Assembly: GCA_025399215.1 (NCBI GenBank)
Contig: MU621197.1
Coordinates: 1 to 53,937, forward strand
Direction: 5' to 3'
Origin: Globomyces pollinis-pini
Lineage: Eukaryota > Chytridiomycota > Chytridiomycetes > Rhizophydiales > Globomycetaceae
Length of the DNA stretch: 53,937 nt
In this document: in pieces, positions 26,201 to 51,313 of the stretch
Layout: each line of letters starts with the position of its first letter
How positions within the stretch are numbered: position 1 is the stretch's first letter
Position numbers and translations under genes: made by a program
The notes under the pieces: generated by a model
The model's input: the letters and a program-made list of their open reading frames with translations, nothing else
The model's database searches: none
Told to the model about the DNA's origin: nothing

Positions 26201-27793
26201 CAGTAATAAATGTCGATAATTTTTCATAAAAGCCTTTCATTCCTTCGTTTTTTAAAATTTGAAGATGTGCAGAGAGTTTGGATGCCATTGCGAAATCAGC
26301 TTCGATTCCATTCTGGACTGAAATTGGAAGTGAATGTTTATGAACTAACCACCGTTTTCGTGCTTCCATTAGTCCAAACGGCTTTGTCAAAAGTGGATCA
26401 TTGGTATAATAAATTTTTTTCTGATATAAGCGAGTCAAAAACGGTGAAATAAATTGTGCAAAGTCATTCATTAATTCCTAAGATTTAGAAATGATGGATT
26501 ATGAATTACAGTTAAAAAGGGTGAAGGGGGTAATACAATTTCTTCGATTTGCTTATTGAATACATAAGGTTTCACATCTGGACTATCTTCCGATCGTACT
26601 TCAACATTTTGAATCAACAAATTTTGAACAACCATTTGAACTGAACTTTATGAGATTGAATTTAACAAACCTAAAATGTTAGTTCCTCAATTGACGAGAC
26701 ACCTTTTTTCATATCAGATCCAGGAGTGGCAGACAATGCCAATACTCTAAACACAGCCGATTTTTTCTCTAATATTTTAATTGCATCACAGTAAGCATAA
26801 TTTCCAATTGCTCGATGCGCCTCGTCTACAACCACCAATACAATCTGGACAAAAATTAAAAAAAGATAGGAGATGGGAACCATCTTAATTGGTATTAGGA
26901 TTAGATAGGAAGCTATTATAGTTTTTGATTGAAACTATAAAGCAAATAGTAGTACATTTCATGGTGTTATTGAAGTGTACCTTATCAATAGGACAAATTT
27001 CCTTTTGTAGATCATTCGCTAATGTTTGTGGTGTCATAAAAAATATCCTTTTCGAATTCCATTCTTTCTTTCGTAGGTATGCATCTGTAGTCCCTGTCAG
27101 TTCAACCGTCACATCCTAAAGAGTTAGAAACGCCTATTTATTAGACAATTGTGTTTTTGAGATTATCCGTGAGTTGTAAACTATATTGAAATGTACCTGA
27201 GGGATAGCGGTGATGTTAAAACATGCTTCAATTTGTTGATTGACCAATGGTTTGGTAGGTGCCATAAAGATGATTTTACCATCTGGAAACCAACGAAAAT
27301 AATTGAACATCACTACAGCAGCAATGAACGTCTTTCCCAAACCCTAAAGTAAAGATATGGGAATACATACGGTTGGAAGACACACGAGGGTATTTGAAGC
27401 CAATGCCGCGAGACATATCTTGTACTGATATTCTCGCAAGGAATAGTTAATTGGGTAAATCCAAGTTTTCAGATTATTCTCATCGTATTGATGATTAGGT
27501 TGTAGAGCATTTGCATTGGATATTTGCTCCAGATAAAGATGATCTTTGGAGAACGGAACGATAGAAGATATACGATCATCTTTTGAGGATAAGTTCACCA
27601 CAGCATCTTTCTTAAAATCAAAGAGAGTACGTTGTCTTTTAAGACTGGTATTTTTAGTGGTATTAATAGTGGTATTTGTACTAGAAGATTGGTGATCAGT
27701 GTTTAAGAAACTGGTAGGATTAGTAGAATTATTTATAGTATTTTCGTTCTGAATGATGGTATCCCAATCACAATCGTCATAATCTGAATCCAT
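23253..27793 (-). CDS. FANCM: FANCM/Mph1-family DNA helicase (fork remodelling, crosslink repair)
   Basis: Known: FANCM/Mph1/Fml1 is a 3'-5' translocase that remodels stalled forks and D-loops. Seen: the ATG at 27793 and SF2 motifs in order. These are Q-motif region [19 protein letters not shown]; motif I CLPT-GLGKTF, completed across a 27-nt intron; [25 protein letters not shown]; motif [17 protein letters not shown]; motif [16 protein letters not shown]. The exon then continues [15 protein letters not shown], and motifs V/VI follow ([34 protein letters not shown]). The C-terminal half of about 600 residues is acidic and low in complexity, with no visible ERCC4 nuclease fold, as in fungal Mph1. 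Introns include ones of 136 nt (26845-26980) and about 81 nt (27112-27193) and a two-unit stack at 26641-26702. The FANCM versus Mph1 name is only a matter of orthology convention. Confidence 0.93.
26641..26702 (-). other. two-unit stacked intron in FANCM (GT-AG|GT-AG, no exon between)
   Basis: On the minus strand, unit 1 is 26702-26671 (32 nt, GTGTCTCG...AACATTTTAG, with CTAAC near its end) and unit 2 is 26670-26641 (30 nt, GTTTGTTAAA...GTTCAG). Each has its own GT and AG and they abut with no base between. Removing both joins ...[10 protein letters not shown] to [15 protein letters not shown], which aligns without gap to the FANCM family (SATPGSDLKAVQQVITNLL in human, from memory). Removing only one unit leaves stops or 8 or more foreign residues. 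Confidence 0.8.
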
Positions 27794-27901
27794 TAAACCA
27801 GTGGGTATTCGTAAATCCAGTAAGTTTGTTCACAAAGTTAAGGAAGTAAGGAATTAACAGTGAATTGAAGATGAGTTGTAGTGGACAAAAGTTAACTTTT
27901 T

Positions 27902-29849
27902 ATGATCAGACAAAAACAGAGAGGACTAAGGGATGAGAAGCCGACTCAGCAGAACTCAATGCTGAAGGCCATTCAAGCTGCCCGTGGTTCTGGGAAACTC
28001 AATCTAAGTTGTCAGTCTTTGTCTGCTTTACCTTCTCAGTTGTTTGAGTCCAATACTTCAAATGATGTTTCCTTTGATCGTCCCGTTGCGTGGTGGGAGG
28101 TATTGCTGTTCATTATATGTCGACCATTCACTAACTTTCCTATTCTTAGCCATTTAAATTTTTGTTACTCATTGTTTAGGAAGTGGATTTAACTCGTCTC
28201 GTTGCTGCTGATAATAACATCCAGGAAATAGATCCTCGAATTGAACTTCTGCATGCCCTTTGTGTATTAGATGTACTAGCTTCTTTCTCATTGTAGTTAC
28301 ATGGCAACTCCATCACGTTTCTACCCACTCAATTAAGCTCCTTACTTCAACTACATTCCCTCAATGTTGCTCACAATGCAATTACCAGTCTTCCCAACGA
28401 AATTTGTTCATTGCCATTGTTAGAATTGCTGTTACATAACAATCAATTATCTAGTCTACCTGACAACTTTGGACAACTCTCTCGAATCACAACATTGGAT
28501 CTATCTAATAACTCCATTTCTACTTTACCACCATCTTTTCATTCTCTATCGTCGCTGCTCAAATTGGATTTGTCTCACAATAACCTATCACACCTGTCCA
28601 TTCAGATACTCAATGGACTACAAGATTTACAATCTCTTTCCCTTTCAAACAACAATCTTAAATCTCTTCGTAGTAATAGCGATGAAGGAACACTTACTGG
28701 GTCAAATGACACTTTAACTCTTCCAAAATTAACATTACTAGACATCAAATCAAACCAATTGACCGAATGGGACATAATTCTAGAATGCCCACGATTAAAA
28801 GATTTTGCATGTGCGTTCAACAGAATATCCAATATTCATGAAGGCACCCTTATCCCCTCCAAAAATCTTGAAATATTGGATATTCGTGATAATAATATTG
28901 GCCAATTTTGTCCTGATATTTTAACACTTAAATCACTCAAACGTTTGGATTTCACCAACAACAGTATCGCTTCCATACCACCAGAGTTGTCACTCATCAA
29001 AACATTATCTGTGATTCATTTAGCTGGAAATCCCCTTCGTGGACTACCTGCTGCAGGTGGGACTGTTCGATTGTTACAGCATCTGGCTAAGAAGCTACCA
29101 CAGGGAGAAATGCAACCAGAAACTATCCCTCAGTCTCGCTCTCGATCATCAAGTCAGAATGCAACGCCCTTATTGTCGGATTTAGTTAATATTGACTTAA
29201 GCCAGACTGGATTAGTGGAATTTGACATTTCTTCGATTCAAGATCAACAGGCATATCCTGTCAGCATTAATTTGTCAAATAATCGTTTAATGGCTCTACC
29301 GGATCTAGAATCTATTTCTAAGCGTCTTACAACTCTTATTTTATCAAAGAATAAGGTAATCGGAAGTACAATTGATTTTTAGTTGACTGAATTTCCATCT
29401 TTATCGTGTATGAGTCTTACGGTACATGAACAAGAAATTAATGTTGTAGACGTTAGATTTATCTAACAATGGTATTCGATCCATCCCAGCTACCATTCAA
29501 CCACTTCCAAATCTAAATGAGTTGAACTTGAACGGTAATCGATTGACCCAACTTGGAACGTTACCTTTCGAATCATTGTCCATCTTACTTGTATCGGGCA
29601 ATTGTCTTACTGATATTGAAGTTCCACTCCTGCAAAGCTTATCACAACTTCATGTTTTGGACCTATCTAATAATGATATTGGTATGGTCCCTCCTGCACT
29701 TGGACTACTGAATCTGTCAAATCTACAACTACTTGGCAATCGGTATATGTTTGTGACTCATGATTAGATTTCGAGTTCCTCGTCCAGACCTATTGATGAA
29801 AGGAACTCAATCGATTTTGGATTACTTGAAGAGTAGAATTGTAACATGA
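27902..29849 (+). CDS. LRRC40: Leucine-rich repeat protein, LRRC40 family
   Basis: Seen: the ATG at 27902; the LRRC40-specific N-terminus with MLKAIQAARGSGKLNLSCQS and a WWE motif; then about 20 leucine-rich repeats of the LxxLxLxxNxLxxLP type from 28200 to 29740. It has the characteristic last exon FRVPRPDLLMKGTQSILDYL ending KSRIVT. Introns: about 80 nt at 28098-28178, 24 nt near 28270, and three of 24-28 nt near 29355, 29423 and 29741. The length of about 610 residues matches the family. Known: LRRC40 is a soluble, widely conserved LRR protein without a settled function. Its 3' end lies 42 bp from the convergent CMC2-like gene. The first ATG at 27902 lies 18 codons before the conserved MLKAIQ, so a start at 27959 is also possible. 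Confidence 0.92.
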
Positions 29850-29891
29850 TTGAAAGAATATACTTTTTATTGTTTTGTTGGAATGATAAGA

Positions 29892-30222
29892 TTATTTCGG
29901 TATATTAAGTTCCTCATTTGCTTTCTCCCATTTCTTTAATCTCATCCTTCCCAATTCTAAATTCTTTTTCATACGTAATTTAGTCTATGATAAGAAAACA
30001 ATTATGATACATTTGCTTTTACACATTCCTCTAGTTTATCATGAAAAGGTTCACATTTTCCAGTTAGACTAAATTATTATAAAGAAATGTAATACCGGTC
30101 CGTGAAAGTGATTCCGGTAGCACATTGTTGGAATGCTAATTTGAATGCAGAACAACTATTGTTAGTTTTTGAATTTGTTACTCTATTGGTTCCTGTTCTT
30201 GAATTGATTTTTCTTTTGACAT
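29892..30222 (-). CDS. CMC2: CMC2-like twin CX9C mitochondrial protein (COX biogenesis)
   Basis: Seen: a four-exon gene too fragmented to show as one open frame. The ATG at 30222 gives MSKEKSIQEQEPID; a 26-nt intron with a CTAAC branch site leads to CSAFKLAFQQC (first CX9C). An intron of about 27 nt leads to LTGKCEPFHDKLEECVKAN (second CX9C), and a 26-nt intron leads to TKLRMKKNLELGRMRLKKW, ending NIPK at 29892. About 75 residues. Known: CMC proteins are imported through Mia40 into the mitochondrial intermembrane space and assist cytochrome c oxidase assembly. CMC2 has the same spacing of cysteine pairs and a basic C-terminal helix. CMC1 or another small CX9C protein cannot be excluded. Confidence 0.72.
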
Positions 30223-30414
30223 CAACTTTTTTTTCGATTAAATTCTTAATAAAATCATGAATGGATATTGATAGAATGATACTAGTAGTAGATGAAATAG
30301 ATTGTATTTTGATCTACTTTACTACTAGTTACTCTGAGTAAATTCACGTTAAATGATAGGTGTTGTGTAGGTACTTCTATCACAAAAAACGTTTGAATTT
30401 TTGATTTTTAAACA

Positions 30415-31393
30415 ATGACTAAAATGGATGATTCCATGATTCAAACTTGGTTTGCAAAAACGTAAATCAAAAGAATTTGATCTTTAGAATCCCAAATTTC
30501 ATTAAAGAATTGGAATCTTGTATATCAAATACTAGAAATCTAACAACTCAATCAAACCCTGTCACTTTAGCTATTTCTTCTCAAAAGTATATACATTCTA
30601 TTGATGTGATAGTTCTTCAAAATTAAAAGGATTTGTAACGTTATCAAATACTTGTATCACGAAAGGAGTTCGTTTATAATAATAATGTACAAATGAAATC
30701 AATTAATAATAACCATAGTTAATTATAGGATGTAATTCAATTCATTATATTGATCTCAAGTTAACTTTCAAATCATCAAACTACAATCGTGGAAATCCTG
30801 TTAAATTCGTCTTGGATTCCACAAAAGCAATTGATATGACTCAAGTAGATTATTAAATTATTAACAGACTAGTTGAAAATGGTTCATGATTGTTTATCAA
30901 TGGCTTTGACCATCGCGTCACGATTGGATCCGATGGTGATACATTCAATTGTTGATGTAATCTCACTAATACTTAACCTAGTCTCTTTCTCATATCACCC
31001 TTTTAGCACAACAAGCTTTAATTTCGTTATCAGATCAAGATCCTTTGAGTATTTTCCCAATTTCCCATTTTCCACATTTAACAAATGCTCCTCCTGATTG
31101 TGCCGTTGATTTTGGTATTCAAGATATCAATCTGATTGTCACTATCACTTGTTTCGTACCCCCAGACTCGAATCCATTGGAACAGGCTCTTTCTACATTA
31201 AAGCAAAGTAATACTGTTCGGTAACTTGAAGATAACTCATATAATGACTAGTTACCAAGGAAAAGATGTTTCGATTTTAGATAAAGTGATTGTGGAAACT
31301 TGTTTCCCAACGCTAGTTAAAATCAAACAAGGATTAGGAACCATTAGTGCTCTATGTGAAGATTTTATCAACAAATACAATGTAATGCATTAA
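30415..31393 (+). CDS. RAV2: ROGDI / RAV2, RAVE-complex subunit (V-ATPase assembly)
   Basis: Seen: the ATG at 30415 (MTKMDDSMIQTWFAK) and seven exons joined by introns of 26, 26, about 51, 28, 25 and 31 nt. The product of about 255 residues contains LKGFVTLSNTCITKG, IDLKLTFKSSNYNRGNPVKF, LKMVHDCLSMALTIAS, then a serine- and proline-rich loop with FPISHFPHL, and the C-terminal ILDKVIVETCFPTLVKIKQG. The order and character of these blocks follow ROGDI/Rav2 (human LPGSGT..KGVLTLQGD, VHKVECVIPWL, from memory). Known: Rav2 is a subunit of RAVE, which reassembles V1 on Vo of the vacuolar H+-ATPase. The overall identity is low, so the call rests on block order. It ends 65 bp from the NCKAP1 stop (convergent). 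Confidence 0.7.
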
Positions 31394-31458
31394 AACCGCT
31401 AAACTAATATAACTATCATATGCGAATTTAATTCCATTTTGAAAATAAATATTAATAT

Positions 31459-34400
31459 TTAAAGTGTTAACCCATCCTCACGCGATTGAGTCATGATTCC
31501 CTTGGAAATGGTATCATGAGAAACACTAAAAGATTCCCATGCACTATTAAACAAATTAAAAGGAAACGCAAAATCAATTCGATCAATAGTCAATCCTGAA
31601 TCCTTTTGAATAAACTAAAATCAATGAGTAAAAATGAATTGTAAGCATTACCTTTAATAGTGTTAGGAATATGGAATGAATAGATACGATCATCAATTTT
31701 GAATTCACTTTATCAATTTGATTGGATTTCAATTGTGATTGTCTTTCGAGTTGAACTGACCAATCAGGGATTAGCAATATTCCACTCAATTTCCAAAATT
31801 CATCTAATGATTTTGATTGGAATTTTTCAAATGATAATAATCGATAAATAGGAGACAAGATTTTACTAAAAGCAATGGAAAGACAATGTCCATTGTTTTC
31901 AAGTCCTAGAGTCAATCAAATGAAATTTACCATCTAACTGTGTATTATAGATTGATTGTTCCATTTGACTTAATTGCCAAAAACCAATGGCAAACAAGAG
32001 TGGTAAGTTCAACCATGTTTGAATATCCTTTTTATCAGCTATCATAATAAATTATTCAGTAATTTTACCAGTTAATGCTGATAATGCCCATTGTAACATT
32101 CCATCACTTTTATCAATCTTTCCAATCTGATTAGCCAATATCTTGGCTGCTTGGATATCTCCTTCAGATTTCAATATTACATTCACCAATGAATCAATTT
32201 CAGTGAATTGATTTTCAAACACCTTTTTAATCCATTAATATCAATAGTGGATATACCTTGGAAATAGCTTGATGAAGTAACTGTCTGAAATGTAGAATAA
32301 ACCCAATACTTTTGGCAGATGTAACGAATTCAGATTTATCTACCATAAATCTCTTTTACACTTACAAGCAAGAGATTCAATCAAATTACGAACTAGAATA
32401 TTATCCATCAAAGATTGACGAATATCATCCAAAACATGCTGATTAATATGTAAAATTTCCTAGTTTTCAATTAATTTCGTTAAACAATTACATGAACAGT
32501 TCCTGTGAGAATGGTAACCATTCTTGTCAACTTTTCATCCATAAATTGTAATCCTTGTAATCCAATCAATTCACAAAGTGCTTTCATTTCTAAATTTCAA
32601 TATGATTAAATGTTACCATGAACATCCGTGTACAATTCTGCTTGAATAGATGAATTATGAATTGTACAGTAACATTGTTGTGAATATGAAAACATTGTGG
32701 TATTTGTATGTGATTTACTGGCTAAAAATTCAGTATACCATTGAACCAAAGTAATCAAGAATGGTTGATTTGGACTATATTGACAAGATTTCCCTTTAGC
32801 ATCTCTAGGAACTTTTCGTTTAATATTATATACAAGTTCATTTTCCATTGAACTAGAGTATCGTTTAATTCTAAAATTAAAATGAGTTTTAAAAACATAA
32901 TTACTTTTCTAAATCTATACAGTCTGCCCATACATCACGTAATAATCCAATCAAATTAATTCCAGTAATATGGTTACAAAACATGATGGAATTGAAATAT
33001 TGTTTGATTTCATTTAAAAATACTGTTGGTCGTTTAATATCAAAAGACATGATATCATCTTCATTTATCAAATATTCTTTGGAAACAATAATATCCAATT
33101 CATATACTTCACGATTTAGAAATCTAAAATATTTTAATATTGAATCTGAAATACGTTCGAAATTGTGTACATAGTGAATCAATAAAGAATTCAAATGGAT
33201 TGAATTCTACATCCTGTAATTGTATTCCAAGGTAATTAGAAGTTTGTAACAATATTTGAATCATGCCCTTATCCGATTCAATACTATAAACAATTATTCA
33301 ATAGTTACTTGTATACCTTGTTATTAACGATTCCATTGATTTGATGATATTATCAGTTCCAACGGTATTTTGTGGTTTAAAAATAGTCTTTCGTTGATCT
33401 TTTTCATCTGATTCACCAACCTTTTCAGTTGTATTTTGCAATCTTTCCAACTGAATGGTTGACATGGCTAATGAGTTGACCAGTATAGCTGCGTATTGAC
33501 CAATAATTGAAAACATCTCGGTAGCATAACATATCGAATGATTGGTAATATCATCTCCCTAATAAATAATTAGTTGATGTAATTTGAATAAAATACTTCA
33601 GCTGGCCATGTTAAAGTCATATTATCATTAAAATCAGATGAAATTAATCCTAAACCATATAAATATCTACTAGATGGATCATTCTCTTCAATACAAATTT
33701 TCAAATGTTGGAATAATATAGGTTGAAAATAATACAATTCTTTTAGGGTAGCATGATTAGATAAAATATGTTCGAAATGATTTAATAAATCCAAACTTTT
33801 CAAGATTTGATTAAATAATTTCACAATAGATTGAATTTTCAATTGAGTATCCGCACGTAACATCAACATTTGAAATACTAACCAATGAGTTTGAATAGGA
33901 TAGTATTGTTTGATTTCAATACATTCTAGAATAGATTCTAATGATTCAATTTGTGAATTTTCCAATAATAAATGTGATGATTCCAATAATTTTTTGATTT
34001 CAATGGATACTTGTTGAATGATGGGGGATACTTGTTTCATCAAACTTTCCAATATATCTATGTATTATAGTCAATTATCAATACCATTTTTTAACATGAA
34101 TATTAGATTCCATAGATGTTTATGATGATAAATCAAATCAATGATTTGTAAATCAATCAATTTAGTTTCTTTTTTCCCAGATTTACATTCTCCATATAAA
34201 TCCTTGTCAAAATTCTTGAAATACCAATAAATTTCTTCTTTGACTACATTTAACGTATCCATAATATTCTATTTTTGGTTAATGATTTGAATATACCAAT
34301 ATTCCATCCAATCCTTTTCGAGATGAAAGTAATCGAAACATTGTTTGTAATTCATTATTGAAGAATTTACGTCGTTCTCGATGTAAATTCCATGAAGATT

Positions 34401-35620
34401 GGAAAGCAAATTGAATATCAGGTTTGAAAACTTTTAATTTCGATAATTTTGGTAATTCTTTACAAATCAAATCTAATTCTTCTTGGATTGAAAATACCTA
34501 ATAATTGTGAGAATTACAAAATGGTTACTTCATCACGATGTAATGAAATCAAATATCCATATTCTAATACAGATTTGAAAAAGTCAATAGTGGATGGTGT
34601 ATCCGATGGAAATATTAAATACGTTAATACACAGATTTCATGTAATTTTGTACATGATTCAGGTGAAGTTAACGTCTGTACAGTTCCATAAAGTTCTGGT
34701 ATTGCTTTCCACATTCCTTTAAAAATTAAAGATTGATTAGGATATTACCTCTTCTTTTTAAAACATTTTTAGATGGAATCACTCGTTGTTGTATTAAGCT
34801 TTCCAATGAAGGTAACAATTTGAAAACAAAGCTAGATACTTGATTCAATTTCTTTTGTACAAATTGAATAGGAGTTTTAGTATAGTTAAAAAAGTCAAGG
34901 ATACTATGATCAACGATACAAATACATTACTTTGACCAACGTGGTTCCATTTGCTCTTTGGTTTTAAATTGATATGCCCTACTATACAAAAACACTACTG
35001 TCTTTTTGTTTGGTCCTATTCTTGAAGCCAACAACAATAACTTTATAACTCCAATGAATAAATCAAACCAAATCATTGTTAATTCTGGGTATAGTTCAAA
35101 CTAGATCAATTAAATTGTATATACAAACTTACAGTGATTTTAAACTTACTTAAACTATTGAGTTCATGTAATACTTTATCAACAAAGGTTGGTATGATGA
35201 CAAACAATTCATAGAATTTCCCTAATTCTTCTATAATTTCATCCGAATTGGTTTGAAATATCGTTAATCCCTAGATATCAATTCTTTACTTTTATATACT
35301 TTTCCAACATCAGTTAGATCTGGAAATTTCTTCATTTTATTACATAGTGATGAGATAGTAGGATCAGATAGTAAGGCAATATTTGAAAAAGCTGGTCTAC
35401 TTGGACATTCTGGATTAATTGTTTGTCCTCGAAAATTAATACTTTCTACATTGCTTGATGGTATTGATTGAATATCTAAACATTTTTTCGTATGGTAGCA
35501 AGCATTGCATAATTCATTGGAATAGTTTGCTAAATGTTTTATATCTAGCATCCATTGTTCAAATTCTGTTCTCATTAAACTAAAAACGCGTGGTAAAAAC
35601 ACTCTCTGTGTTGATAACAT
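31459..35620 (-). CDS. NCKAP1: NCKAP1 (Nap1/Hem), WAVE regulatory complex subunit
   Basis: Known: NCKAP1 is the large alpha-solenoid subunit of the SCAR/WAVE complex that activates Arp2/3 and drives lamellar protrusion. Seen: about 18 exons separated by 26-37-nt introns. The N-terminus has MLSTQRVFLPRVFSLMRTEF and LCNKMKKFPDLTDVGK. It continues with the diagnostic LISLHRDE-VFSIQEEL join and WNLHRERRKFFNNELQTMFR (human SMHRERRKFLRSALKELA, from memory). Later come FNPFEFFIDSLCTQF, MKALCELIGLQGLQFMDEKL, GLENNGHCLSIAFSKIL and the end FIQKDSGLTIDRIDFAFPF. The start is uncertain: the same frame stays open to 35689 without an ATG, and a short upstream exon is possible (ATG near 35724). The gene looks intact at about 1120 residues. 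Presence in a flagellated fungus fits the crawling motility described for chytrids with WAVE. Confidence 0.92.
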
Positions 35621-35780
35621 TGGTGGTTGAACAATCCCATAGTTTAAATCAATGGGTATGAATAGTAGTACAACTCGAAAATCACACAAGAGTAGTCACA
35701 TCAATATCTACCATAAATTATTTTTTATTGAGTAAATCCACTGGTTTTAATTATTGTAACAAAAATGCACATTGAACGAT

Positions 35781-36370: not shown

Positions 36371-36431
36371 GAAAAAAAATGAAAAGTTTGTGGATGGAAA
36401 GGAAAGGAAAGAGACTATCAAAGAGAGAGAA

Positions 36432-36475: not shown

Positions 36476-36573
36476 TTGTATTGTGAAAGATGAGGAGCAT
36501 TTTACCAAGTTACTTGGAGTATTTTACTCCATAAAAAATGAATTACGATTGGAACTAGTTCAATTGAGGTTTA

Positions 36574-37009
36574 TTAAGATGCTCTAGTTAACCAATACAG
36601 TAAAAATATCACTACAAATCCACCTACAATCATCAGCATTCGTCGTCCATGAGGTGTATCCATCACTAATGCCAATTTCTTGCCTGTCCTTTTAATATCA
36701 TCCGAAATATTATCAAATGAACTACCCATATCATCCAGCATTCTAAAGTTATTAATCACCAAGTTACATATGCTCTTCATCCAATGATCCTTGCATTTGC
36801 AATGTAATCTAATATAAGTCCATAAATTCTACAAACTTGTTTAATTTTTGATACTTTATCATGCAGTGTATCTGCCAATCCATCCGTCTGAGTTTCAATT
36901 AATCGGTCTTGTTGTTCACGATTCCTAGCATCATTATTCCTTGATGGTAAGAAAGTAATTCCCAATCCTTACCTGGTTGTTATGAAATCCAGTATTTTTA
37001 CCATGACAT
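36574..37009 (-). CDS. Bet1/Sft1-type Qc-SNARE with C-terminal anchor
   Basis: Seen: exon 1 is only 8 nt (ATGTCATG, 37009-37002), followed by a two-unit intron stack (37001-36940). Exon 2 reads NNDARNREQQDRLIETQTDG, with LADTLHDKVSKIKQ. After a 28-nt intron comes ITLQMQGSLDEEH, and after a 25-nt intron come IMLDDMGSSFDNISDDIKRT and the tail anchor MLMIVGGFVVIFLLYWL. The stop is at 36574. About 115 residues. Known: Bet1 and Sft1/GS15 are short Golgi SNAREs with exactly this layout. Odd: aligned on the conserved M..SSFD, the zero-layer glutamine is replaced by glutamate (in LDEEHI). Which of the two orthologues it is cannot be decided by eye. Confidence 0.82.
36940..37001 (-). other. two-unit stacked intron in the SNARE gene
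   Basis: Unit 1 is 37001-36973 (29 nt, GTAAAAATAC...CATAACAACCAG) and unit 2 is 36972-36940 (33 nt, GTAAGGATTG...CCATCAAG). They abut exactly. Only removal of both joins the 8-nt first exon in frame to NNDARNREQQ (ATG TCA TG|G AAT). Removing unit 1 alone gives an immediate stop (TGG TAA is not formed; the reading is TG|G TAA). Confidence 0.7.
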
Positions 37010-41166: not shown

Positions 41167-43393
41167 TTAAACCACAAAGAGTGAATAAATGAAGGCAAAA
41201 CATACGCCGACGTAAACAAGAAACAAAGCAAAAAGAACACCTTTGGCAAGTTTTACCTTGAGGTCAACAACGTCGTCCAAAGGAGTCGGTTTGGCATCCG
41301 TCATTACTTCTCCCAAAGGGTCTTCAAACGTGACAGTTTTGTTTTCATCTTTTTTGGCACGCTTTCTCAATCCCTAAAAGTTCAATCAGTAAAAGATAAT
41401 ACACTTTCTTCTTGCATTGGACTATCTTCTTCGCTATCGTCCTCAATGAATTTGACAATTCTTTCTTTCAAAGACGTTTCAACATTAGCATCATCCATTT
41501 CTGATTCAGAAGTAAATGTTGAATCTTTAACACTATCTGAAAACGCATTGAGCTTTTTATCCACAACACTTTCAAACTCTTTCTCACAAGTATTATTTAA
41601 GTCGTTGCTTCTATGATATTTAACATCAATTAATTTACAAATCGTCCGATTTTGACGTTTCCATCTCCATGGTGTCATCTGAAAGTGCCATTGAATAAGT
41701 ATCCAGTTGTATCTGATGGTTTAGCTTGTGTTTATTACCTTCAAAAAGTCCAATTCCTCCAATTGTTCAGTTAACTTGAATACAATTGAATTATAGTGTT
41801 TTTGCTCAGTGTCATTTTGAATCAAATGTTCCGCCTTCTTCAGATTATAAAGTTGATTTTTGATATCCTGAATGGTAAATGTATCTTTTGGATTATACCT
41901 CAATAGATTGGTTGACTTTTTGATGAGTGTTTGATATTTTACGACCAGTATTCCCAACTGGAAACACAAACTTTGCATCTGTGACTTCGTCACTTGAAGT
42001 CTCCAATTGTTTTGTTTGAGACAGGGTTTCTGCGAATTTGGTCATATCAATCTTGTACTCTTCAATCATTTTTGAAGTAAGTGGTACTTGAATGCCTGAG
42101 GATGTTAAACAAACAAGAATTCCAGCTTGAGTTATCATCACTTGATTGTCATTGGACATTAATTTGAACTCAGTCGAGATATCAAAAGGTGATGATGGAT
42201 CGTCGGGGGTTAACATATCATCAGTCACTGGAATAGATTCACCCCATTCGTTTTGAATAAATAAGTCTCCAGTCGCAGCTGTAATGAAATCAACTCTTAT
42301 CAATTTATTGATATCAGTTCGCTAAATGTTATTGTCAACGTTACTTACCGATTGCTTATTTTCGTTCATCAATCCAATGTCAAGTGATTCCTACCATCAA
42401 TTAGCGTGTCAATTTTTAAAATACTTTCATTTCTTCCAAATTTTCTAGCTTTTCACCCAATGTTGCTAGTTTATCATGAAACGACTCATACTCCTCAAAA
42501 CTTTCATCAGTTGCAAATTCATCATATCCCATCAATACATTCAGTCGGTTTTTTAATTCCTGAAAATTAAATTGAATGATTACATTAATTGATAAGGAGA
42601 CTTTATCAGAGAGGTCGCTGTCGATATCACTTGGTAGATCTGGTTGAGAAGATTCCATAGCATCATCCAAGTCTTTAAGTGGTTCATCCCTGCCTTCCAC
42701 AATTGGCTTTTCAATTGGCGCTTTCATTTGACCATCCGACACGACATCTGTTTGCTCAAATTCATTGATGGTATTTAATGTCTTGAATTGACCTATTGAA
42801 GCTTTCATGTCATCCATTAAATTGTTTGCAATAAGACTGTCCACCACGCCATCAGATGGTACAGTAGTAGTATTCAACGACTTTAATTGACCTAACGAAG
42901 CTTTCATATCATCCATTAAATTATTTGCTATAAGAGATGACTCTAAAGTCATTAATGATGCTAATTCATCGAAATCGTTTATGTTTAGCTGATCTGAGTT
43001 TTGGATTTTTGATGATTGATTGTCGATTTCTTCAGGTTCATACGCTTCTGCAGCTTTAGCGACTCCATCAATAACAGGATCTTCCATTAACAAGTTATCA
43101 AAATCAAGATCTTGATCATGAATTTTTTGTTTTTGTAAACGTAATTTTTGTAAATCCAATAGTTGTTCTTTTAAATCTTCAAGAGAGGTTTTCTGTACAA
43201 AATGAGAGTTTCTTTCAGCATTATCTCTAATATCTTTTTCGGAAAGAATGTCATCATCCGTTAAAGCTAGATCAAGCAATTCTTTTGAGAATGGTACTGA
43301 AGAGATCTTTGATTTACTCTTATTGAATAACGTTTGTTCCAGATCTTTGATAATTTCACCAAATTCTGTGTCAGTTTGAAAGTTTGAATCCAT
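41167..43393 (-). CDS. tail-anchored coiled-coil protein sharing a repeat with PCM1
   Basis: Seen: the ATG at 43393 (MDSNFQTDTEFGEIIKDLEQ) and a long acidic exon with an internal near-duplicate (LIANNLMDDMKASLGQLKSL and LIANNLMDDMKASIGQFKTL). A helical unit ends EKLENLEEMK, followed by an intron. A beta-rich middle comes next (VDFITAATGDLFIQNEWGES with SDNQVMITQAGILVCL-like sequence). A second helical unit, AEHLIQNDTEQKHYNSIVFK with LTEQLEELDFLK, is again followed by an intron. After a linker and a 29-nt intron the protein ends with the hydrophobic tail AKGVLFALFLVYVGVCFAFI. The second unit closely resembles AEHLITTEQERECYETVLKK in PCM1. The family is not recognised. Inference: a protein anchored by its C-terminus, perhaps linking satellites to a membrane. 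About 660 residues. Confidence 0.75.
41742..42560 (-). repeat. two copies of the same helical unit in the tail-anchored protein
   Basis: Copy 1 (nt about 42560-42417) contains ESFEEYESFHDKLATLGEKL-ENLEEMK; copy 2 (nt about 41860-41742) contains TEQKHYNSIVFKLTEQLEEL-DFLK. Both end at a phase-0 intron, as in PCM1. Confidence 0.65.
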
Positions 43394-43670
43394 GGATTGA
43401 AGTGAAAAAAGTTAAAAAGGATTCAACCAAACAATGACTTTCCATAGTTTTCTAAGCTTTGGATTTCCAGAAAATAAATTGTTGTAAAGTGTTTACGTTA
43501 GAGTGAATATCACGTCCATTGAGAAGCACGAATTACTATGAGATCTTCCTTAGTACTTTCTAATTGTACATATCTAATGAATCATTCATAGAAACTAGTC
43601 TATTGATTTTATTAACATTCCATTAGTTTATTGGTATTGACTTCAATTCTTTCTTCATCAATTTTCAAAA

Positions 43671-45175
43671 ATGGATAATCAGGATACCAAACCAAAGAAA
43701 GAGAGTTACTTTGGAAATAATCCTTATGAAAAGCAAGATCAAGACCGAATTGCTTTCAATCTATCAAAGGAATTAGGTCCAGAATTCTTAACTGAAAGAA
43801 AAGGCCCTGGTAACTGTATTTCATCAAGTGATTTCATTCTATTTTCTTAGCTAAATTAAAGTATGTGGAAGGTTGGAAATTGGTCAACTTGGCAAATAAT
43901 ATATTGGATTTTAATGGTTGGTCAAGTGAAATCATCAAACAAACGGTAGATTATGTTGATGTAGATCAAGGAAAGTATTCTGTTGGAGTTTCTACAATTG
44001 TTAGAGTGACTCTGAAAGATGGGTAATTATAAAATCAATGTTAAACTATAGTGCATTTCATGAAGTAAATTGAACTGGTTAATGTAAAAGGATGTTGGAT
44101 ATGGTAGTGTAGAAAACAGTAGGTCTAAAAGTATGGCATTTGATAAATCAAAAAAGGAATCAGTTACAGATGGCATTAAAAGGGCCCTAAAGGTAATACC
44201 ATGATAAGTATTTATAATAGCACTTTGGAAATAGTTTAGGAAATTGTGTATACAATCAAGATTATCTTAAAAGAATGAGTAGAATGCCAGTACCAAAGGT
44301 TAATCTGTAGTAATTGACAAACAGACTGTTCCAAAATCCAATAATGAATTATATCACTTTAATGATGTTAAAATTGAACCAGTAAAATTAGAACCAATCA
44401 AACAAACTACATCAAATAACATAGTGGATGAATATGATGATGGTAAATAGTCAATCTCATTTATACTCTTAGAGGATGATTCAATCTATTTAGCGGCAGA
44501 TTTAGAATGTATCGACCCAAAACTGTTAACAGACACGTTTGTTTCTACTTTTTAATAGTAGAACCCATCAACATGTAAACAGACCAGTTTCAACTTCACG
44601 GATCCAACCAGCAGTCGAAGCACCAACTAACAATGTAAATACCGGATCGTCCAAACAGAACCATGTCGCAATTGATTTGAAAAAAGCACCCGAGCCTATT
44701 AATAATCCTTCATCAAGTGCAAGACGAGAAGTGATAGTTAGTTATACCAATGGAACTCATAGACCACTTACTAACAAATCGAGTGCACCCAACAGTAGGC
44801 CAGAAATTACGACTAAACCAACAACAACTATCCAAAAACCATCAACTTCAAATCCTATGCTTAGCGCTAATAGACCTTCAGATTCAAAGGTATACCCAAA
44901 CCCGACCGCCAATACTGGAAATCGACAACTAGGCACTCCTTTTCAACCACAATCGATGCAAAATACCCCTAACCAAAGTAAGCACCATATTTCTGACGGT
45001 AGTACCTCCTTATATAACTCCTATCACAGCCAAACGTATCAATAACTTTCATGGCACTTTTCAACAAACTCCCGTACCCTATAATAGTAGACCTATTGTA
45101 GTTGCCAACAGTCTTGTGAACAATAATCCTGTTGACAATAAAAATAAGCGACCAAGAGTAAATGAAACTGGATGA
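43671..45175 (+). CDS. RAD52: RAD52 homologous-recombination mediator
   Basis: Known: Rad52 forms rings that anneal single strands and load Rad51. Seen: the ATG at 43671 (MDNQDTKPKKESYFGNNPY) and the N-terminal domain with YVEGWKLVNLANNILDFNGW, IIKQTVDYVDVDQGKYSVGV, RVTLKDG-AFHE-DVGYGSVE, VTDGIKRALK and HFGNSLGNCVYNQDYLKRM. The C-terminal half is proline-, serine- and asparagine-rich and ends NKNKRPRVNETG at 45175. Nine or so exons include a 13-nt microexon at 44052-44064 coding the end of DG and AFHE. The others join over introns of 22-44 nt. The conserved annealing domain is complete. It is divergent from the tail-anchored gene, with a 277-bp shared promoter. Confidence 0.95.
44052..44064 (+). 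other. 13-nt microexon of RAD52
   Basis: It is flanked by introns 44023-44051 (29 nt) and 44065-44090 (26 nt). Including it gives LKDGAFHEDVGYG, matching the invariant KDG-(S/A)(Y/F)HEDVGYG of Rad52. Skipping it breaks the frame. Confidence 0.9.
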
Positions 45176-45290
45176 AGATAGGTACCATGATAAAAATAAA
45201 ACTTGCAATCCCTTTCGTCTAATAAGTATGCAACAAATATAAGCTGATTTGTTTTATTTCATAAAAAAAAAAGTAGTTCAAGTAAACCAG

Positions 45291-46754
45291 TTAAATGTTT
45301 TGATTGTACGAGAATAAGTTCAAAGGATCATACTGTTGCTTGATCTTCTTCAAACGATCATGATTAGGACCAAAGAAATTTGCCGATTCAGATTTATCAT
45401 TTTGAATTTCACCTACAGCTTGATACCTAGCTGATCCATACACTTCCAATTCCTTTACGGCTTTACGACACCATTCAGTGGATTTGATTTTTTGTTCCGG
45501 GGTACCATCGAATTTACTCATTACCAATACCCATAACTTTGCGTTACGATGTGGGAAAGCAGTTGCATCTGGTTTGACGGATGAAAATTTACCACCAAGG
45601 TAGAAAATGACAATACTACATTCAGATGGTTGATCCACATGAGTTAATTCCCAAATTTTTTCAACAGCTGTATCTGGAAGTTCATCAAGTAAAACACTTT
45701 TTTCATAATAATATCCAGTTGATTGACCTTTTCCATCTTTTCCTAAAGCAAGTGATTGTACACCTTTATGATAATCAATTGGCTTTAAAGTATTTGCAAT
45801 TGGTGATCCCAAATTAGCAGATTTAATCAATTTTTCACCTTCTGAAGGATCCCCATTATACGTATAAACTGCAATAAATGGCCCTCCACCAGCAGCAACG
45901 GTCATCAAAATCATTTCATCAGGTAAAGTTAATGAAAAATCTCGATGAAGTTTAAAGGCATCTAATGGAGCAGTTTGAATTAAAGATAATAATCCAAATG
46001 GTAAATAAACCATGGCACCAGCATACATGATACTATCTTTTGGTAGATCATGTAATTGATAAGTTATCTCAATGACAACACCAAAATTACCACCTAACAA
46101 TCAATTTCACAAAACCTTACCTCCACCACGTAATGCCCAGAAAAGATCTTGATTCTCATTTGCATTTGCATTCACGATACGACCATCCAAAAGAGCAATT
46201 TTAATTGATAATACATTATCAATAGTCATCCCATAAGATTTTGCTAAAAATCCTAATCCACCACCTAAAGTCAACCCAATCAAACCAGTATCAAAATTAG
46301 TTCCACAAGTAGTTGACATGTTGTATGGAGCACATGCAGCATCAAATTCACCCAATTTGACACCAGCTTGAGCAGTAGCAGTTTTTTGTTCTTTATCAAT
46401 ACTGATGTTTTTCAATAATCTTGTATCGATAGAAAGGGCATTATTAATAGATGAATAATGAGAATGTTTTCCACCCGAAATACATACTTTTAATTGATGC
46501 TTATTGATAAATTTGAGAATATCAGCAATTTCAGTTTCATTAGCTACTAGAGCAATAGCAGAAGGAGTACCTGATACATCCCAATTCCAAGTAGTTCTAA
46601 TTTCTTGATAATCTGAATCTGTTGGAAGAACCAATCTTCCTTGTTTTAAAATAGATTTCAAGTCATCTACAGGAACTGCCAAGGGTTTTATCGTAGTAAT
46701 ATCACAAGTAGGTGGAGTAGGTTCGGTAGTAAAGAACGCTTTAAAAAATGACAT
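45291..46754 (-). CDS. FAD-linked oxidase, berberine-bridge-enzyme (BBE) type
   Basis: Seen: the ATG at 46754 (MSFFKAFFTTEPTPPTCDIT; the open frame extends upstream to 46826 without an ATG), then a PCMH-type FAD domain: SAIALVANETEIADILKFI, VCISGGKHSHYSS with the histidine usually bound to FAD, AQAGVKLGEF, TTCGTNFDTGLIGLTLGGGL and FWALRGGGGNFGVVIEITY. The glycine run is completed across a 27-nt intron at about 46101-46127. The C-terminal BBE motif is KQQYDPLNLFSYNQ, with the stop at 45291. Known: these enzymes oxidise alcohols, sugars or alkaloids with O2. The substrate cannot be inferred. Members are often secreted, but the N-terminus here is not a clear signal peptide. Confidence 0.85.
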
Positions 46755-46900
46755 TAAAGAATTTCGGGTCAATGTTTTTGTCAAGTCATTCGTGAATAAT
46801 GAAAACGTGTAAACAATCCAATCCAATAAAATGGTTGAAAAAAAGCAAGTATTTTAGTTGATAATAAAGAAAGAAAGAGTTTGATTTTTTTCAAGTATTC

Positions 46901-47937
46901 ATGGAAGTGTTACCAAACATCAAACGATTGAGCTCTAGAGTGATTGTTATACTAGGTCAAAATCCTGGCAAATTCACTTTACAAGGAACGAATACTTATT
47001 TAATTGGAACTGGGAAAACTAGAATATTGTTAGGTTGTCATTCTATTACCTAATGGTAGACCCTGGTGAAGGTATACCAGCATATGCTGAATTACTTCAA
47101 AAATCATTGGTACAAGAAAATGTATCGACGATTTCCAAAATATTATGTACTCATAGACATAAAGGTTTGTTGATTTCATTAAACATTCAAAAGGTAAACA
47201 ATCAACTGGATTTGAATCATGAAGGTAGTTGAACTAGATCTGATTCATCTTGTAGGTTTCCCTTATTCAATAACAGATTCAGATCATGTAAAAGGTGTAC
47301 ACCAAGTTAGAGATTTGATGGGATATCAAATACCTGCTTATAAAAGATTAGTACCATCAGACACAAATGATGAATACAATTTCATTGATATTCCAGACAA
47401 CCAAATATTTGATATTGAAGGAGCAACTTTACGTGCTATTCATACTCCAGGTAATTATTGATTGAATTCTTAATTTTAGGACATACAGATGACCATGTTT
47501 CCTTTTTATTGGAGGAAGAAAATGCAATATTTACAGGTGATTGTGTACTTGGTCAAGGATCCGCTATCTTTGAGAATTTATCAGATATTATGAATTCACT
47601 CTCATCATTGTTAACCTTAAACCCCAAAATACTATATCCTGGCCATGGTCCAACCGTATTTGATGGTCCAAAAAAGATTACAGTACTTGATTGTTTTAAT
47701 AACTATTTTAGGAATATATCAACAATCGACTGGACAGAGAAAAAGCTATAATCCAATTATTACAAACAAATGATATGACCAGTGGTGATTTAACTAAAAC
47801 GATTTACAAAGGTTACCCTGAAAGTATACTAGAAGCAGCTGAAAGAAGCGTTATCCTTCATCTTCAAAAATTAATGGAAGAGAAACGAGTGGTAGTAAAC
47901 CAAGATACATATCGTTATCTCCAGTAAATAATTTCTT
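46901..47937 (+). CDS. LACTB2: LACTB2-type metallo-beta-lactamase-fold endoribonuclease
   Basis: Known: LACTB2 is a zinc-dependent mitochondrial single-strand endoribonuclease. Seen: the ATG at 46901 ([20 protein letters not shown]), [18 protein letters not shown] and LDPGEG (across a 26-nt intron). The zinc motif is THRH-K-DH, which is formed only by removing the 118-nt stack at 47165-47282. Then come [16 protein letters not shown] and, after about 28 nt, [20 protein letters not shown] with [20 protein letters not shown], and after a 29-nt intron [18 protein letters not shown], ending DTYRYLQ at 47937. All metal ligands (HxHxDH, H, D, H) are present. The length of about 280 residues equals the human protein. 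Confidence 0.92.
47165..47282 (+). other. four-unit stacked intron in LACTB2
   Basis: Four intron-sized units abut: 47165-47193 (29 nt), 47194-47224 (31), 47225-47255 (31) and 47256-47282 (27). Each begins GT, ends AG and is separated from the next by nothing (AG|GT three times). Removing all 118 nt makes CAT AGA CAT AAA G|AT CAT, the HxHxDH zinc site, continuing [11 protein letters not shown] as in LACTB2. Partial removal leaves stop codons or foreign residues within the catalytic motif. Confidence 0.8.
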
Positions 47938-48030
47938 GACCAAAATCGATATGATCAAATCAAATTGAACTTCAATATAATTCAATGGGTATCAAGAGTA
48001 TTGTGTGAAATTAGTTTATGAAGTTGTTTA

Positions 48031-48867
48031 TTACAATTCATCATTTGAAAGGAAAGCTGGAACAAAATTTGGAAAGAAATTGAAGAATACAATCACACCA
48101 ATTACAGCAATGAATATAATTGAAAAAGAGAGTTTTTTAGATTGTGATGGATACAATTTGACTTTTTTATGATGTAAAGTAGCAATAATGGGATCGATTG
48201 CAGATAACAAGATATGAGATATCCAATCACCATGAGTAAATGGAAACCCTGGTCCTTGAAATCTTCTTATGAGTTTCTTTTGAGATGAATACGTATCCGT
48301 AAAATGAAATCGTTCTTGTTTATGATTCCATCTAAAAAACATTTTAATTGTTGAATCATCCATTCCACAATTGACCATTGAAATAGACGTACTTTGATCC
48401 CGTTTATATTTGAAAAGATCTTTGATGATTTTGGTATCCATTATAGTAGAATCCCCACATGTCAATATGATCAACAGTAACTGTTTTTGATTGGATTCTT
48501 TACGACTACGATCTAGAAATATTTTATCAATCAATTGAGTTAATAAATTATAACCAATTGGATTTGAATTGAAGATTGTATCCAATTGTTTTAGATCATT
48601 CAAGATTTGTCCAGGTCGATTTATAAATTGAATTTGGATGTTTGGATGACCTATTGAATCAAGTAATTTCCATAATGAAGAGACAATTTCTTTCATATCC
48701 AACCATCGATTTTGGGATTGATAGTAAGAATCCACAACAGGGGTATTCATAAATGTGGAATCATCACAAACAATTATGATATCCTGATCATTCAATAGAC
48801 ATAGTTTTTCAATCATTACTGGTTGAAGATTGAATTCCTTTAGATTTTTGACATTGATTTGATTCAT
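48031..48867 (-). CDS. vWA-like protein with C-terminal membrane anchor, ends NDEL
   Basis: Seen: an uninterrupted frame with ATG at 48867 (MNQINVKNLKEFNLQPVMIE; the frame is open to 48918 without ATG). A beta-strand/MIDAS-like start, DIIIVCDDSTFMNTPVVDSY, is followed by WLDMKEIVSSLWKLLDSIG, LLLIILTCGDSTIMDT and SISMVNCGMDDSTIKMFFRW, an order typical of von Willebrand A domains. The MIDAS DxSxS is imperfect (DDSTFM). Near the end, LSFSIIFIAVIGVIVFFNFF is one membrane span, followed by 13 residues ending SNDEL. Inference: a tail-anchored protein with a cytosolic vWA domain; if in the ER, the NDEL end would face the lumen. No close family is recognised. About 278 residues. Confidence 0.65.
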   Translation of the reverse strand: MNQINVKNLKEFNLQPVMIEKLCLLNDQDIIIVCDDSTFMNTPVVDSYYQSQNRWLDMKEIVSSLWKLLDSIGHPNIQIQFINRPGQILNDLKQLDTIFNSNPIGYNLLTQLIDKIFLDRSRKESNQKQLLLIILTCGDSTIMDTKIIKDLFKYKRDQSTSISMVNCGMDDSTIKMFFRWNHKQERFHFTDTYSSQKKLIRRFQGPGFPFTHGDWISHILLSAIDPIIATLHHKKVKLYPSQSKKLSFSIIFIAVIGVIVFFNFFPNFVPAFLSNDEL

Positions 48868-48954
48868 CAAAGATTTTCGCACACACACAAGTTCAGTATG
48901 AATACAAGAGTGAAGCAAATGAAGTAAACATTTTATTACGTTGTACTATGGAAT

Positions 48955-49493
48955 TCATTGACCAACAAGATCATCATCAATGATATCATTCGATTCCAAA
49001 GCTAATCGCATCGAGATTTGTTTAGCAGTTTCACCAATAATATCATGAATCTCCTTCTCATCAATCTCATCCTCCTACAATTAAAAAATATTATAGTCAT
49101 GTTACATCAGAACTTATCGATACAGTATCATCACCCTCTTCAAATTCATTATAATCTACATCCTCTTCATCACTTTCAAACGTTTGGTTAATGAATGCTT
49201 GATCTCGATATTCATTGAATTCTTTACCATTTCGAAGTTTTTGTTTTTGTAATCGAAGTGCTTCAATTGCAATATCAGTAACCTATTCATAAGAATGAAT
49301 GAATTGAAACCTCATCAATTGGAATATTATCATCTAAATCATCTTCAGAAATATCTTCATTGATGTCTTCAACGGTAAAGTCTTGATCTGCTTCATCTTC
49401 ACTTGGTAAGTTATCACTTAACAAGATTTTGGTTGAATAGGTATCATTCTCTGTGGTGAGATTGGTTGCATCTGTGGGATTGGTAGTTAACAT
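48955..49493 (-). CDS. acidic protein of unknown function
   Basis: Three exons from the ATG at 49493 (MLTTNPTDATNLTTENDTYS). The first is strongly acidic (PSEDEADQDFTVEDINEDIS). A 28-nt intron leads to VTDIAIEALRLQKQKLRNGK with FESDEEDVDYNEF, and a 49-nt intron leads to EDEIDEKEIHDIIGETAKQI, ending DDDLVGQ at 48955. About 150 residues, no membrane segment, short helices only. The family is not recognised. The composition resembles small nuclear or chaperone-like acidic proteins, but that is a guess. Confidence 0.65.
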
Positions 49494-49685
49494 GGACAAA
49501 TTTTTATCTGTCCAAATTGTCCATTAAAGTACACAAAAAATTGATGTTCAATTCCAGAATCAAAACAGAAAAATACCTGATACTAAAATGAATGTTAATA
49601 TTCATTGGAGTATCAGTTGAAAGAATTCTGTGTAGTTCGCGGTAGATCATACACGTAATTAAGATACTCAAAGAGTTTGTTGATT

Positions 49686-51313
49686 TTATTTGACAAAAGA
49701 TTTTGGAAATATCCCTTTTAAACCATTCAATTCTCCTTCATACCAATTTTCATCAACTATCAATCAAATATTTCATTAAACTATACCATCTCCAATGACG
49801 GTGATTTTATCTCCAACACGAAATCCTAAATCATCAGCTTCTGATGCTTCAAAATTCTTTATAGCCGTCACAGTATTCTTGGATGGTCTTGTGATGGGTG
49901 GTGGTAATCCAGGTGGAACTTTGATGCCTGATGTAAACACTACAATGATATCAACATGATCAAACTTACCTCTAGGTGGTGGAGATCCTAATCCTGATAA
50001 TATTCCTCCACCTCTGGATTCAGAATGAGAGGTGGATTCGCTATCTTTATTGGTTGAACCATATCCAGGAAGTCGAACTGGAGCTTTTCCTTGCGTACTG
50101 ACAGACATTCCACTGGCTAACTCTGATGTTGCGCCTGTAGAATGGAGAGTCTTTGCAGCCTGTGAAGCAGCTTTTGGATCTACACTATCACAATGATTAA
50201 TAATCTATGATATCATCTCTTAAAAAGGTAAAAAGTATTTACGAATAATATCAAGAATGTCAATACCTGAAACCAATACTCCCATCCGCTCCTCTACTTG
50301 GTTTAACACCAGCAAAGAATTGACTTGCAGCACCAGAAGTAGCCGCTTTTTTAGCAACCGAAAAAGCAACATCGCGATCAACAGACACTGTAGTATCTGG
50401 TGGTATATAATTTGCATAAGGTGTATCTTTTGCAAAAGAATTGATTGGGACTCCAATTTGAGGTTTGGACGCAACTGTATGTTATACAAAAAACTGTTCA
50501 ATACCTGAAATAAATGATTAAATATTTTGTAATGGATACATACCTATATTCATTAATATATAAGATATCCATCATCAAGATACCAGGTGGTTTGGCTGGT
50601 GTAGGAGGTTGTGCAGTATACCTAGGAAGTGATTCGGACTCACCAGGTCGTCCCGGTAAACTGGGTTTGAATGCCGGTTGATCTCTACGTGCTGTGGTAG
50701 GTGGATCTCTTGAAGGTAAACCAGGTTTGTTGATTGATTTCCGTGATGTTATTGGTGAAGTTGGTTTTGGCATCAAAACTGGAGGTGGCATTGATGATCC
50801 ATGAGAAGATGATACAGTTGATGCTATCGGTTTTGGTGTTAATGTTGGTGGACCTTTGATGAGTCACTTCCCTTACCAGTCTGACGTTGAGTGCCAATTT
50901 CAGGGAATACATTTGAAAATGCTGTTAATGTTGAAGATTCAATCCAGTTTCGTTTATCCAATTCTGTAGTTTGTGAGTATTATGAATGACAAACCTATTC
51001 CTTGTAAATAAGTAATGATTACCTGTGGAGATTAAAAGAATTGTAGTTAGTACCTTTAAGAGAAGATTAGGAACTAATAGAAGGTACCTATGCATAAGGA
51101 ATTGCAAACAATTTGTACCTAAAATCAACTCCTGAACTCTATGAGTGCAATACCCTTGTAAATTCATTTGAATGTAAAAATACAAAAATCCACGGATAGA
51201 CAGAGTAAGGGAAAGATTGCTTCAGATACCGTTGTAGTCTTACTTACGGAGTTGTCATTGATGAACTCTACTCGGTTTTCGTCATCACCAGCAATTAGAG
51301 TATGAGGTGTCAT
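49686..51313 (-). CDS. SH3-domain adaptor with proline-rich linker
   Basis: Seen: a likely start at the ATG at 51313 (MTPHTLIAGDDENRVEFIND). Then comes QSFPYSVYPWIFVFLHSNEF and, beyond an intron stack, ELDKRNWIESSTLTAFSNVF. A proline-rich region follows (SSMPPPVLMPKPTSPI, NKPGLPSRDPP, FKPSLPGRPGE, TAQPPTPAKPPG), then a low-complexity segment (VAKKAATSGAASQFFAG and SVDPKAASQAAKTLHS). The C-terminal SH3 domain is TAIKNFEASEADDLGFRVGD, KITVIGD-VDENWYEG (across a 30-nt intron) and GLKGIFPKSFVK, with the stop at 49686. ALYDF-, WYEG- and FPxxYV-like SH3 positions are all recognisable. Inference: an actin or endocytic scaffold. ABI, the WAVE-complex SH3 subunit, was considered, but its N-terminal homology is not visible. 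5' exons are uncertain. Confidence 0.65.
50964..51118 (-). other. five-unit stacked intron in the SH3 gene
   Basis: Five GT...AG units of 31, 34, 31, 28 and 31 nt abut without exon bases: 51118-51088, 51087-51054, 51053-51023, 51022-50995 and 50994-50964. A putative 13-nt microexon (51131-51119) and a 22-nt intron (51153-51132) precede it. Removing all five joins G to AA TTG GAT (ELDKRNWIESS) in frame. The protein here is not a recognised family, so the exon call is inferred from phase alone. Confidence 0.6.

Follow-up and report, generated by a model that had tools for sequence, protein, structure and literature searches.

Intron gain is a long-standing question, and it has stayed open because recent gains are seldom caught. 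It is raised in a concrete form by MU621197.1, which belongs to the assembly (GCA_025399215.1, 18.5 Mb in 459 contigs) of the tiny aquatic chytrid Globomyces pollinis-pini (Rhizophydiales, Globomycetaceae). In this 53,937-nucleotide (nt) stretch, analysed as a whole and hereafter called the window, several genes carry at one intron position a stack of GT..AG units of intron size that abut without any exon between them. Are such stacks ordinary longer introns in which AGGT occurs by chance, or arrays of complete introns, and how are they removed and how did they grow? On the evidence presented below it is quite probable that they are arrays of complete minimal introns, each of which would be excised alone, and that these arrays grew partly via tandem duplication.

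A first, sequence-only reading of the window had named four stacks, in genes labelled FANCM, SNARE, LACTB2 and SH3. Upon recheck of the sequence, the coordinates, strands, unit numbers and lengths given for these four loci were all recovered. Every unit there begins with GT and ends with AG, and neighbouring units abut as AG|GT. The list was sound as far as it went but missed a fifth stack, at 50475-50583 (40+39+30 nt), which is the second one within the SH3 gene. The individual units are as follows.

26671..26702, minus strand: FANCM stack, unit 1, 32 nt, GT..AG with a CTAAC branch-like motif
26641..26670, minus strand: FANCM stack, unit 2, 30 nt, unit ends checked in the sequence
36973..37001, minus strand: SNARE-like small gene, stack unit 1, 29 nt, unit ends checked
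36940..36972, minus strand: SNARE-like gene, stack unit 2, 33 nt, unit ends checked, SNARE label weak
47165..47193, plus strand: LACTB2 stack, unit 1, 29 nt, unit ends checked
47194..47224, plus strand: LACTB2 stack, unit 2, 31 nt, unit ends checked
47225..47255, plus strand: LACTB2 stack, unit 3, 31 nt, likewise predicted as an intron by a naive gene finder
47256..47282, plus strand: LACTB2 stack, unit 4, 27 nt, open in frame, retained as 9 amino acids (aa) in the deposited model P0121
51088..51118, minus strand: SH3 gene, stack 1, unit 1, 31 nt, unit ends checked
51054..51087, minus strand: SH3 gene, stack 1, unit 2, 34 nt, unit ends checked
51023..51053, minus strand: SH3 gene, stack 1, unit 3, 31 nt, unit ends checked
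50995..51022, minus strand: SH3 gene, stack 1, unit 4, 28 nt, unit ends checked
50964..50994, minus strand: SH3 gene, stack 1, unit 5, 31 nt, unit ends checked
50544..50583, minus strand: SH3 gene, stack 2, unit 1, 40 nt, from the gene finder alone
50505..50543, minus strand: SH3 gene, stack 2, unit 2, 39 nt, from the gene finder
50475..50504, minus strand: SH3 gene, stack 2, unit 3, 30 nt, from the gene finder

Removal of both stacks from the SH3 gene leaves a protein of 360 aa with an SH3 domain at its C-terminus. The SNARE-like gene, once its two units are removed, encodes 106 aa starting with MSWNNDARNREQQ. The name SNARE could not be upheld: Pfam returned no match for this protein and the best PDB match is weak (syntaxin 8, E 0.011).

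The coding content of the stacks was assessed by removing all units and aligning the resulting peptide to solved structures, nine stacks having a significant match. The junction, marked here by a caret, is free of gaps in eight of the nine. These include the UBE2G1-like gene with five units (EIWHPN^VHENGDV, E 5.7e-35), the SAMHD1-like gene with five (QLGVSYY^VYLGATH), the PHYHD1-like gene with ten units over 285 nt (VLQSMLIFK^QPDIGGEV), the kinesin-8-like gene with two (VFAY^GATGAGKT) and an RRM protein with four, whose best match is poly(A)-binding protein with CSTF2 next (E 1.6e-22). The same holds for the four units of LACTB2 (THRHK^DH; the aligned peptide started with a few residues from an unspliced intron). 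The two units of FANCM (GSDMKK^VQMVV, against FANCM 9el5_A, E 3.9e-23) and the five of a HIPK/CLK-like kinase (HDLG^LIHTDLKPEN) complete the eight, the peptides of these last two having been joined by hand before alignment. The ninth stack, of three units in a VPS35-like gene, shows a one-residue gap adjoining the junction. In addition, the deposited Globomyces model of deoxyhypusine hydroxylase (DOHH) continues across its own 29+29 stack; the DOHH translated from contig C300 matches a Globomyces protein at 97% identity and is ten residues longer because of a missed intron. The alignments show that the coding content of the stacks is zero wherever it was tested.

Some units might still be real short exons adding residues, and LACTB2 is where this would be sought. 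Its units 1, 2 and 4, 87 nt in all, contain no in-frame stop, and a naive gene finder treated them as coding because they happen to be open. The deposited model P0121 (window 46901-47927, plus strand), which lacks the conserved N-terminus, keeps unit 4 as nine residues, and this has to be counted against a stack without coding content. The LACTB2 units would however come between residues found invariant when eight sequences are aligned, the insert site lying among H76, H78, D80 and H81, and no additional residues remain in the eight other stacks tested by homology. We consider short exons very improbable, and P0121 appears to be a wrong gene model. Arrays of this kind can thus break gene models, as illustrated by a nine-residue insert in a conserved metal site.

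Are longer inserts in this genome built of units in general? A gene finder combining a codon-position Markov model with splice matrices was run on 334 kb, comprising the window, C1:1-210000 and 10 kb from the start of each of seven further contigs. It is blind to AGGT, allows introns of up to 260 nt and mildly penalises lengths above 40 nt. Single introns of 22-41 nt make up 395 of the 438 predicted introns, with lengths centred on 28-29 nt and peaking at 28, donors mainly GTA and acceptors mainly TAG. The 43 longer inserts were scored as tiled when units of 22-41 nt abutting as AG|GT accounted for their full length, dinucleotide shuffles serving as control. Among inserts of 42-66 nt, 4 of 8 tile (shuffle mean 0.22, maximum 3; none of 1000 rounds reaches 4). 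At 67-130 nt the count is 3 of 25 (mean 0.17; one round in 1000 reaches 3), and at 131-260 nt it is 0 of 10, with a shuffle mean of 0. A looser run yielded 122 genes and 544 introns, 476 of them of at most 41 nt; 5 of its 7 inserts of 52-66 nt tile, as do 9 of the 68 inserts above 41 nt. The density of AGGT, 1 per 363 nt per strand over the 334 kb, is 1/452 nt in predicted exons, 1/1145 nt inside predicted short introns and 1/255 nt in longer inserts. The tiling counts against shuffles place AGGT in the longer inserts above chance; according to the sequence-only reading, a chance level together with RNA evidence of whole-stack removal only would reduce the stacks to ordinary longer introns. 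The lengths of unsplit predicted inserts are sparse at about 50-69 nt and become commoner again from 70 nt, as if there were two intron classes.

The pattern of abutting minimal introns recurs genome-wide. Over the whole genome, 333 pairs of TAGGTA are spaced by 26-35 nt versus 22 pairs at 13-22 nt, two of the latter being 21-nt units of a single array on C270. The series continues with 50 pairs at 46-55 nt, of which 32 have an internal junction spaced at intron length (two-unit stacks), 124 pairs at 56-65 nt, and 26 at 66-75 nt, of which 12 are split. Triples of TAGGTA number 88, against 5 for the reversed pattern. For pairs the reversed pattern is a weak control because it reads ATGGAT, which is frequent in coding DNA; it gave 183 pairs at 26-35 nt, 169 to 179 at other spacings and 148 at 56-65 nt, and the spacing series was preferred as control. 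In the 334 kb, AGGT words spaced by 24-36 nt form 11 chains of at least three (shuffle mean 2.7) and 4 chains of at least five, one of which is an exonic repeat, versus none in 20 shuffles. No chain of at least three occurs there at 11-23 nt spacing. An AGGT chain at C1:106155-106304 (minus strand) was not counted as a stack, its G-rich repeat being read as exonic.

Several counts taken on smaller samples are less favourable, and they are what can be said for chance occurrence of AGGT in ordinary introns combined with selective reading. The window alone holds 19 AGGT pairs at unit spacing versus 10.6 expected, a weak excess that is attained by 3 of 100 shuffles. Chains of at least three are also found in the 334 kb at other spacings (7 at 37-49, 6 at 50-62 and 4 at 63-75 nt), and permuted words form chains of at least five (ATGG 2, GATG 1, GGTA 1). 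Chance AGGT should nevertheless lack any preference for unit-length spacing, and the whole-genome counts display one; the tiling test, the TAGGTA triples and the homology tests oppose chance as well. It can for practical purposes be set aside.

The properties of individual units were examined on 28 stacks comprising 105 units, with total lengths of 58-285 nt. By construction, all units of this set are GT..AG and abut as AG|GT. Twenty pattern loci (L030-L049), mostly chains, were hand-picked from the first listed genome matches, and 13 were retained for having coding flanks in a compatible frame. The remainder (L033, L035, L036, L037, L040, L048 and L049) were excluded on visual inspection because their coding flanks were poor, doubtful or absent; no threshold was set, and L037 and L049 outscored the retained L038. 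Three ambiguous loci, C1:141885, window 1666-1724 and C3:6399, did not enter the set. A subset of 12 stacks, in whose selection neither the pattern nor AGGT chains played a part, consists of the four reader-picked window loci and eight gene-finder stacks; KIN, C1_425 and C2_66 are not in its counts, having been found via AGGT chains that include the exon border. Ten curated stacks lie outside the window in about 269 kb of non-N sequence, and by proportion the whole 18.5-Mb assembly would hold about 690.

Do the units carry the signals of introns in their own right? The branch motif YTNAY is present in 65 of the 77 non-last units, in 23 of 28 last units and in 341 of 395 single introns, and 500 shuffles of the non-last units gave a mean of 44.5 and a maximum of 55. 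In the 12-stack subset it occurs in 16 of 19 non-last units, a count reached by 21 of 2000 shuffles. Mean unit length is 30.2 nt versus 29.0 nt for single introns. At internal junctions the donor has A at +3 in 69 of 77 cases and the acceptor has T at -3 in 60 of 77, but these counts are biased because 13 of the 28 stacks were chosen by the TAGGTA pattern; the subset gives 13 of 19 and 10 of 19, respectively.

Splicing could alternatively join only the outermost sites of a stack, its first donor with its last acceptor, the internal AG|GT being relics of intron growth. Junctions released from use in this way should decay, so that whole-stack removal alone would turn internal junctions into double-length units. 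In the whole-genome TAGGTA intervals of 46-55 and 66-75 nt there is no excess of lost internal junctions: junction-free intervals amount to 18 of 50 and 14 of 26, which is not above the 22 pairs at 13-22 nt, a comparison bin that is itself too short for most units. Retention of the branch motif in non-last units, unit lengths close to the single-intron mean and the composition of predicted inserts of 55-69 nt (five stacks versus one unsplit) likewise speak against removal of the whole stack.

Other observations weigh against excision unit by unit, some of them in favour of whole-stack removal. TAG|GTA makes up just 5 of the 19 internal junctions in the subset. Splice sites inside the stacks of an initial set of 10 score below those of single introns (p 0.013 for donors, p 0.0026 for acceptors), the single-intron scores being inflated because the same matrices picked those introns. 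Unstacked inserts of comparable size also exist in the same genome: a 75-nt intron in DOHH (C300:2701-2775), for which the deposited model has the same N-terminus, and a 136-nt insert without internal AGGT in the window (26845-26980, minus strand), directly after ICPIDK. We take the stretch around the latter to be FANCM-like. As far as size goes, a whole stack could therefore be removed at once. The looser run moreover contains 53 unsplit inserts of at least 67 nt among the 68 above 41 nt, part of them false bridges. On balance we regard whole-stack splicing as unlikely and unit-by-unit splicing as the better account of the stacks. The stepwise, recursive-like splicing proposed from the sequence alone gains indirect support, from the signals present in each unit and from the lack of lost-junction excess.

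Excision of single units could proceed as follows. One intron position is occupied by several minimal spliceosomal introns of about 25-40 nt with zero-length exons between them, and most of these introns bring a GTA or GTT donor, a YTNAY branch motif and an AG acceptor of their own. Since most units have their own splice signals, the spliceosome, pairing nearby sites across short introns, would most likely excise them singly and in any order. Every excision would leave the reading frame unaffected and restore a junction of the type AG|GT or exon|GT. Multiplication of units would be neutral for the protein because every unit is excised. Growth would result at least partly from tandem duplication of units in place, with the repeated AGGT as a possible micro-homology.

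How far does the evidence on origin agree with growth by duplication? Among pairs of units within a stack, 26 of 188 score above the 99th percentile of 5272 between-stack pairs, where 1.9 would be expected. Duplication is plain in the L030 and DOHH stacks and weaker in L038 and L041. L030 (C12:42085-42369; locus 186-470) is the ten-unit stack of the PHYHD1-like gene and the longest seen; it contains five successive similar units of 27-28 nt, two of which are identical, and its first and eighth units are also similar to each other. The 27-nt segment encoding VLQSMLIFK is an exon and not a unit. Some arrays thus hold recent duplicates, and tandem duplication, one of the two origins envisaged by the sequence-only reading, is plain in at least two stacks. 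Elsewhere in the genome, further near-identical tandem units bordered by TAGGTA were observed at C68:15928-16041 (27 nt) and at C270:11346-11419 (21 and 26 nt).

The case for duplication as the general route is less uniform. The remaining 162 of 188 within-stack pairs do not exceed the 99th percentile, the similarity excess is modest once L030 is left out (p 0.009), and 24 of the 28 stacks have no pair above the 99.9th percentile. The dissimilar pairs could be old copies whose sequence changes fast, or they could stem from separate insertions. The latter would correspond to repeated insertion of unrelated introns into AGGT proto-sites, each insertion making a new AGGT target in an introner-like manner; this is a rival about origin and not about splicing. 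Besides the dissimilarity of most pairs, two further observations agree with it. Exons ending in AG are commoner before stacks than before single introns (8 of 12 in the subset versus 139 of 395, p 0.03), and growth past two units is disproportionately frequent. At least three units are found in 3 of the 9 stacks known from the gene finder only, versus a second unit at 1.9% of intron positions (p 5e-4), or in 2 of 8 when the ambiguous C1:141885 is left out (p 0.007). A frequent third unit is also what is expected if the repeated AGGT seeds further copies. A larger tally, 6 of 15 stacks with at least three units (p 3e-6), is inflated by stacks found through AGGT chains or picked by the reader and was not used.

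Proto-site insertion is opposed by the absence of similarity between stacks, the maximum score in the 5272 unit pairs being 0.37, and by the plain tandem copies inside some stacks and in C68. Exons starting with GT after a stack are not significantly enriched in the subset (2 of 12 versus 37 of 395, p 0.32). Insertion as the origin is a real possibility that falls short of an even chance, and duplication may be the general growth route. Taking splicing and growth together, we lean slightly towards a minisatellite-like intron position, where AG|GT serves both as splice site and as seed for duplication or insertion, and where individually spliced introns may multiply to as many as ten per position and, by extrapolation, some 700 stacks.

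Intron gain through tandem genomic duplication is itself not new (PMC4974935), and there is an AGGT-segment model for it. AGGT borders and tandem copies are traits of that route which the Globomyces stacks may share; in that model an exon segment turns into one intron, whereas here whole introns would be copied beside themselves. Introners and introner-like elements stand for the gain of many introns in one lineage (PMC4457414, PMC7789003). They would show as sequence-similar introns at many loci; in Globomyces no sequence family common to different stacks was found, no genome-wide clustering of single introns having been made, and similarity is confined to units of the same stack.

Recursive splicing at ratchet points with zero-nucleotide exons has been described in Drosophila and human (PMC8605326, PMC6110457). 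The juxtaposed AG|GT within an intervening sequence is common to both systems, and stepwise removal without leaving an exon, possible at ratchet points according to these accounts, would work likewise in the stacks. Known ratchet points cut long introns into segments, whereas the Globomyces stacks, in a fungus, span 58-285 nt and consist of as many as ten successive segments, each a complete minimal intron of about 25-40 nt. Stwintrons, the spliceosomal twin introns of fungi (PMC9024468, PMC8469720, PMC12403724), likewise place two U2 introns at a single position of fungal genes and are spliced consecutively. The inner intron of a stwintron, however, disrupts a splice element of the outer intron; the units of the 28 Globomyces stacks are complete and simply abut, up to ten of them, and are not stwintrons because no splice element is interrupted, no search for nested arrangements elsewhere in the genome having been made. 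The suggestion that tandem chains of minimal introns form an undescribed class agrees with the open-access literature, in which no report of stacked minimal introns was found, an earlier report elsewhere being possible.

Stacks of two to ten complete introns offer a good setting for the study of intron multiplication. Extra intron copies, some of them nearly identical, exist beside single-intron positions, which makes the steps of gain, divergence and loss readable and testable. The ten-unit stack L030 is a good candidate for copy-number polymorphism. The arrays also probe the choice among equivalent adjacent sites by a spliceosome adapted to introns of about 28 nt. Elsewhere in the window, a large WD40-like gene (16987-23176, minus strand) has 19 predicted introns of 24-39 nt; we take it to be a CFAP44-like flagellar gene, which would fit a zoosporic fungus.

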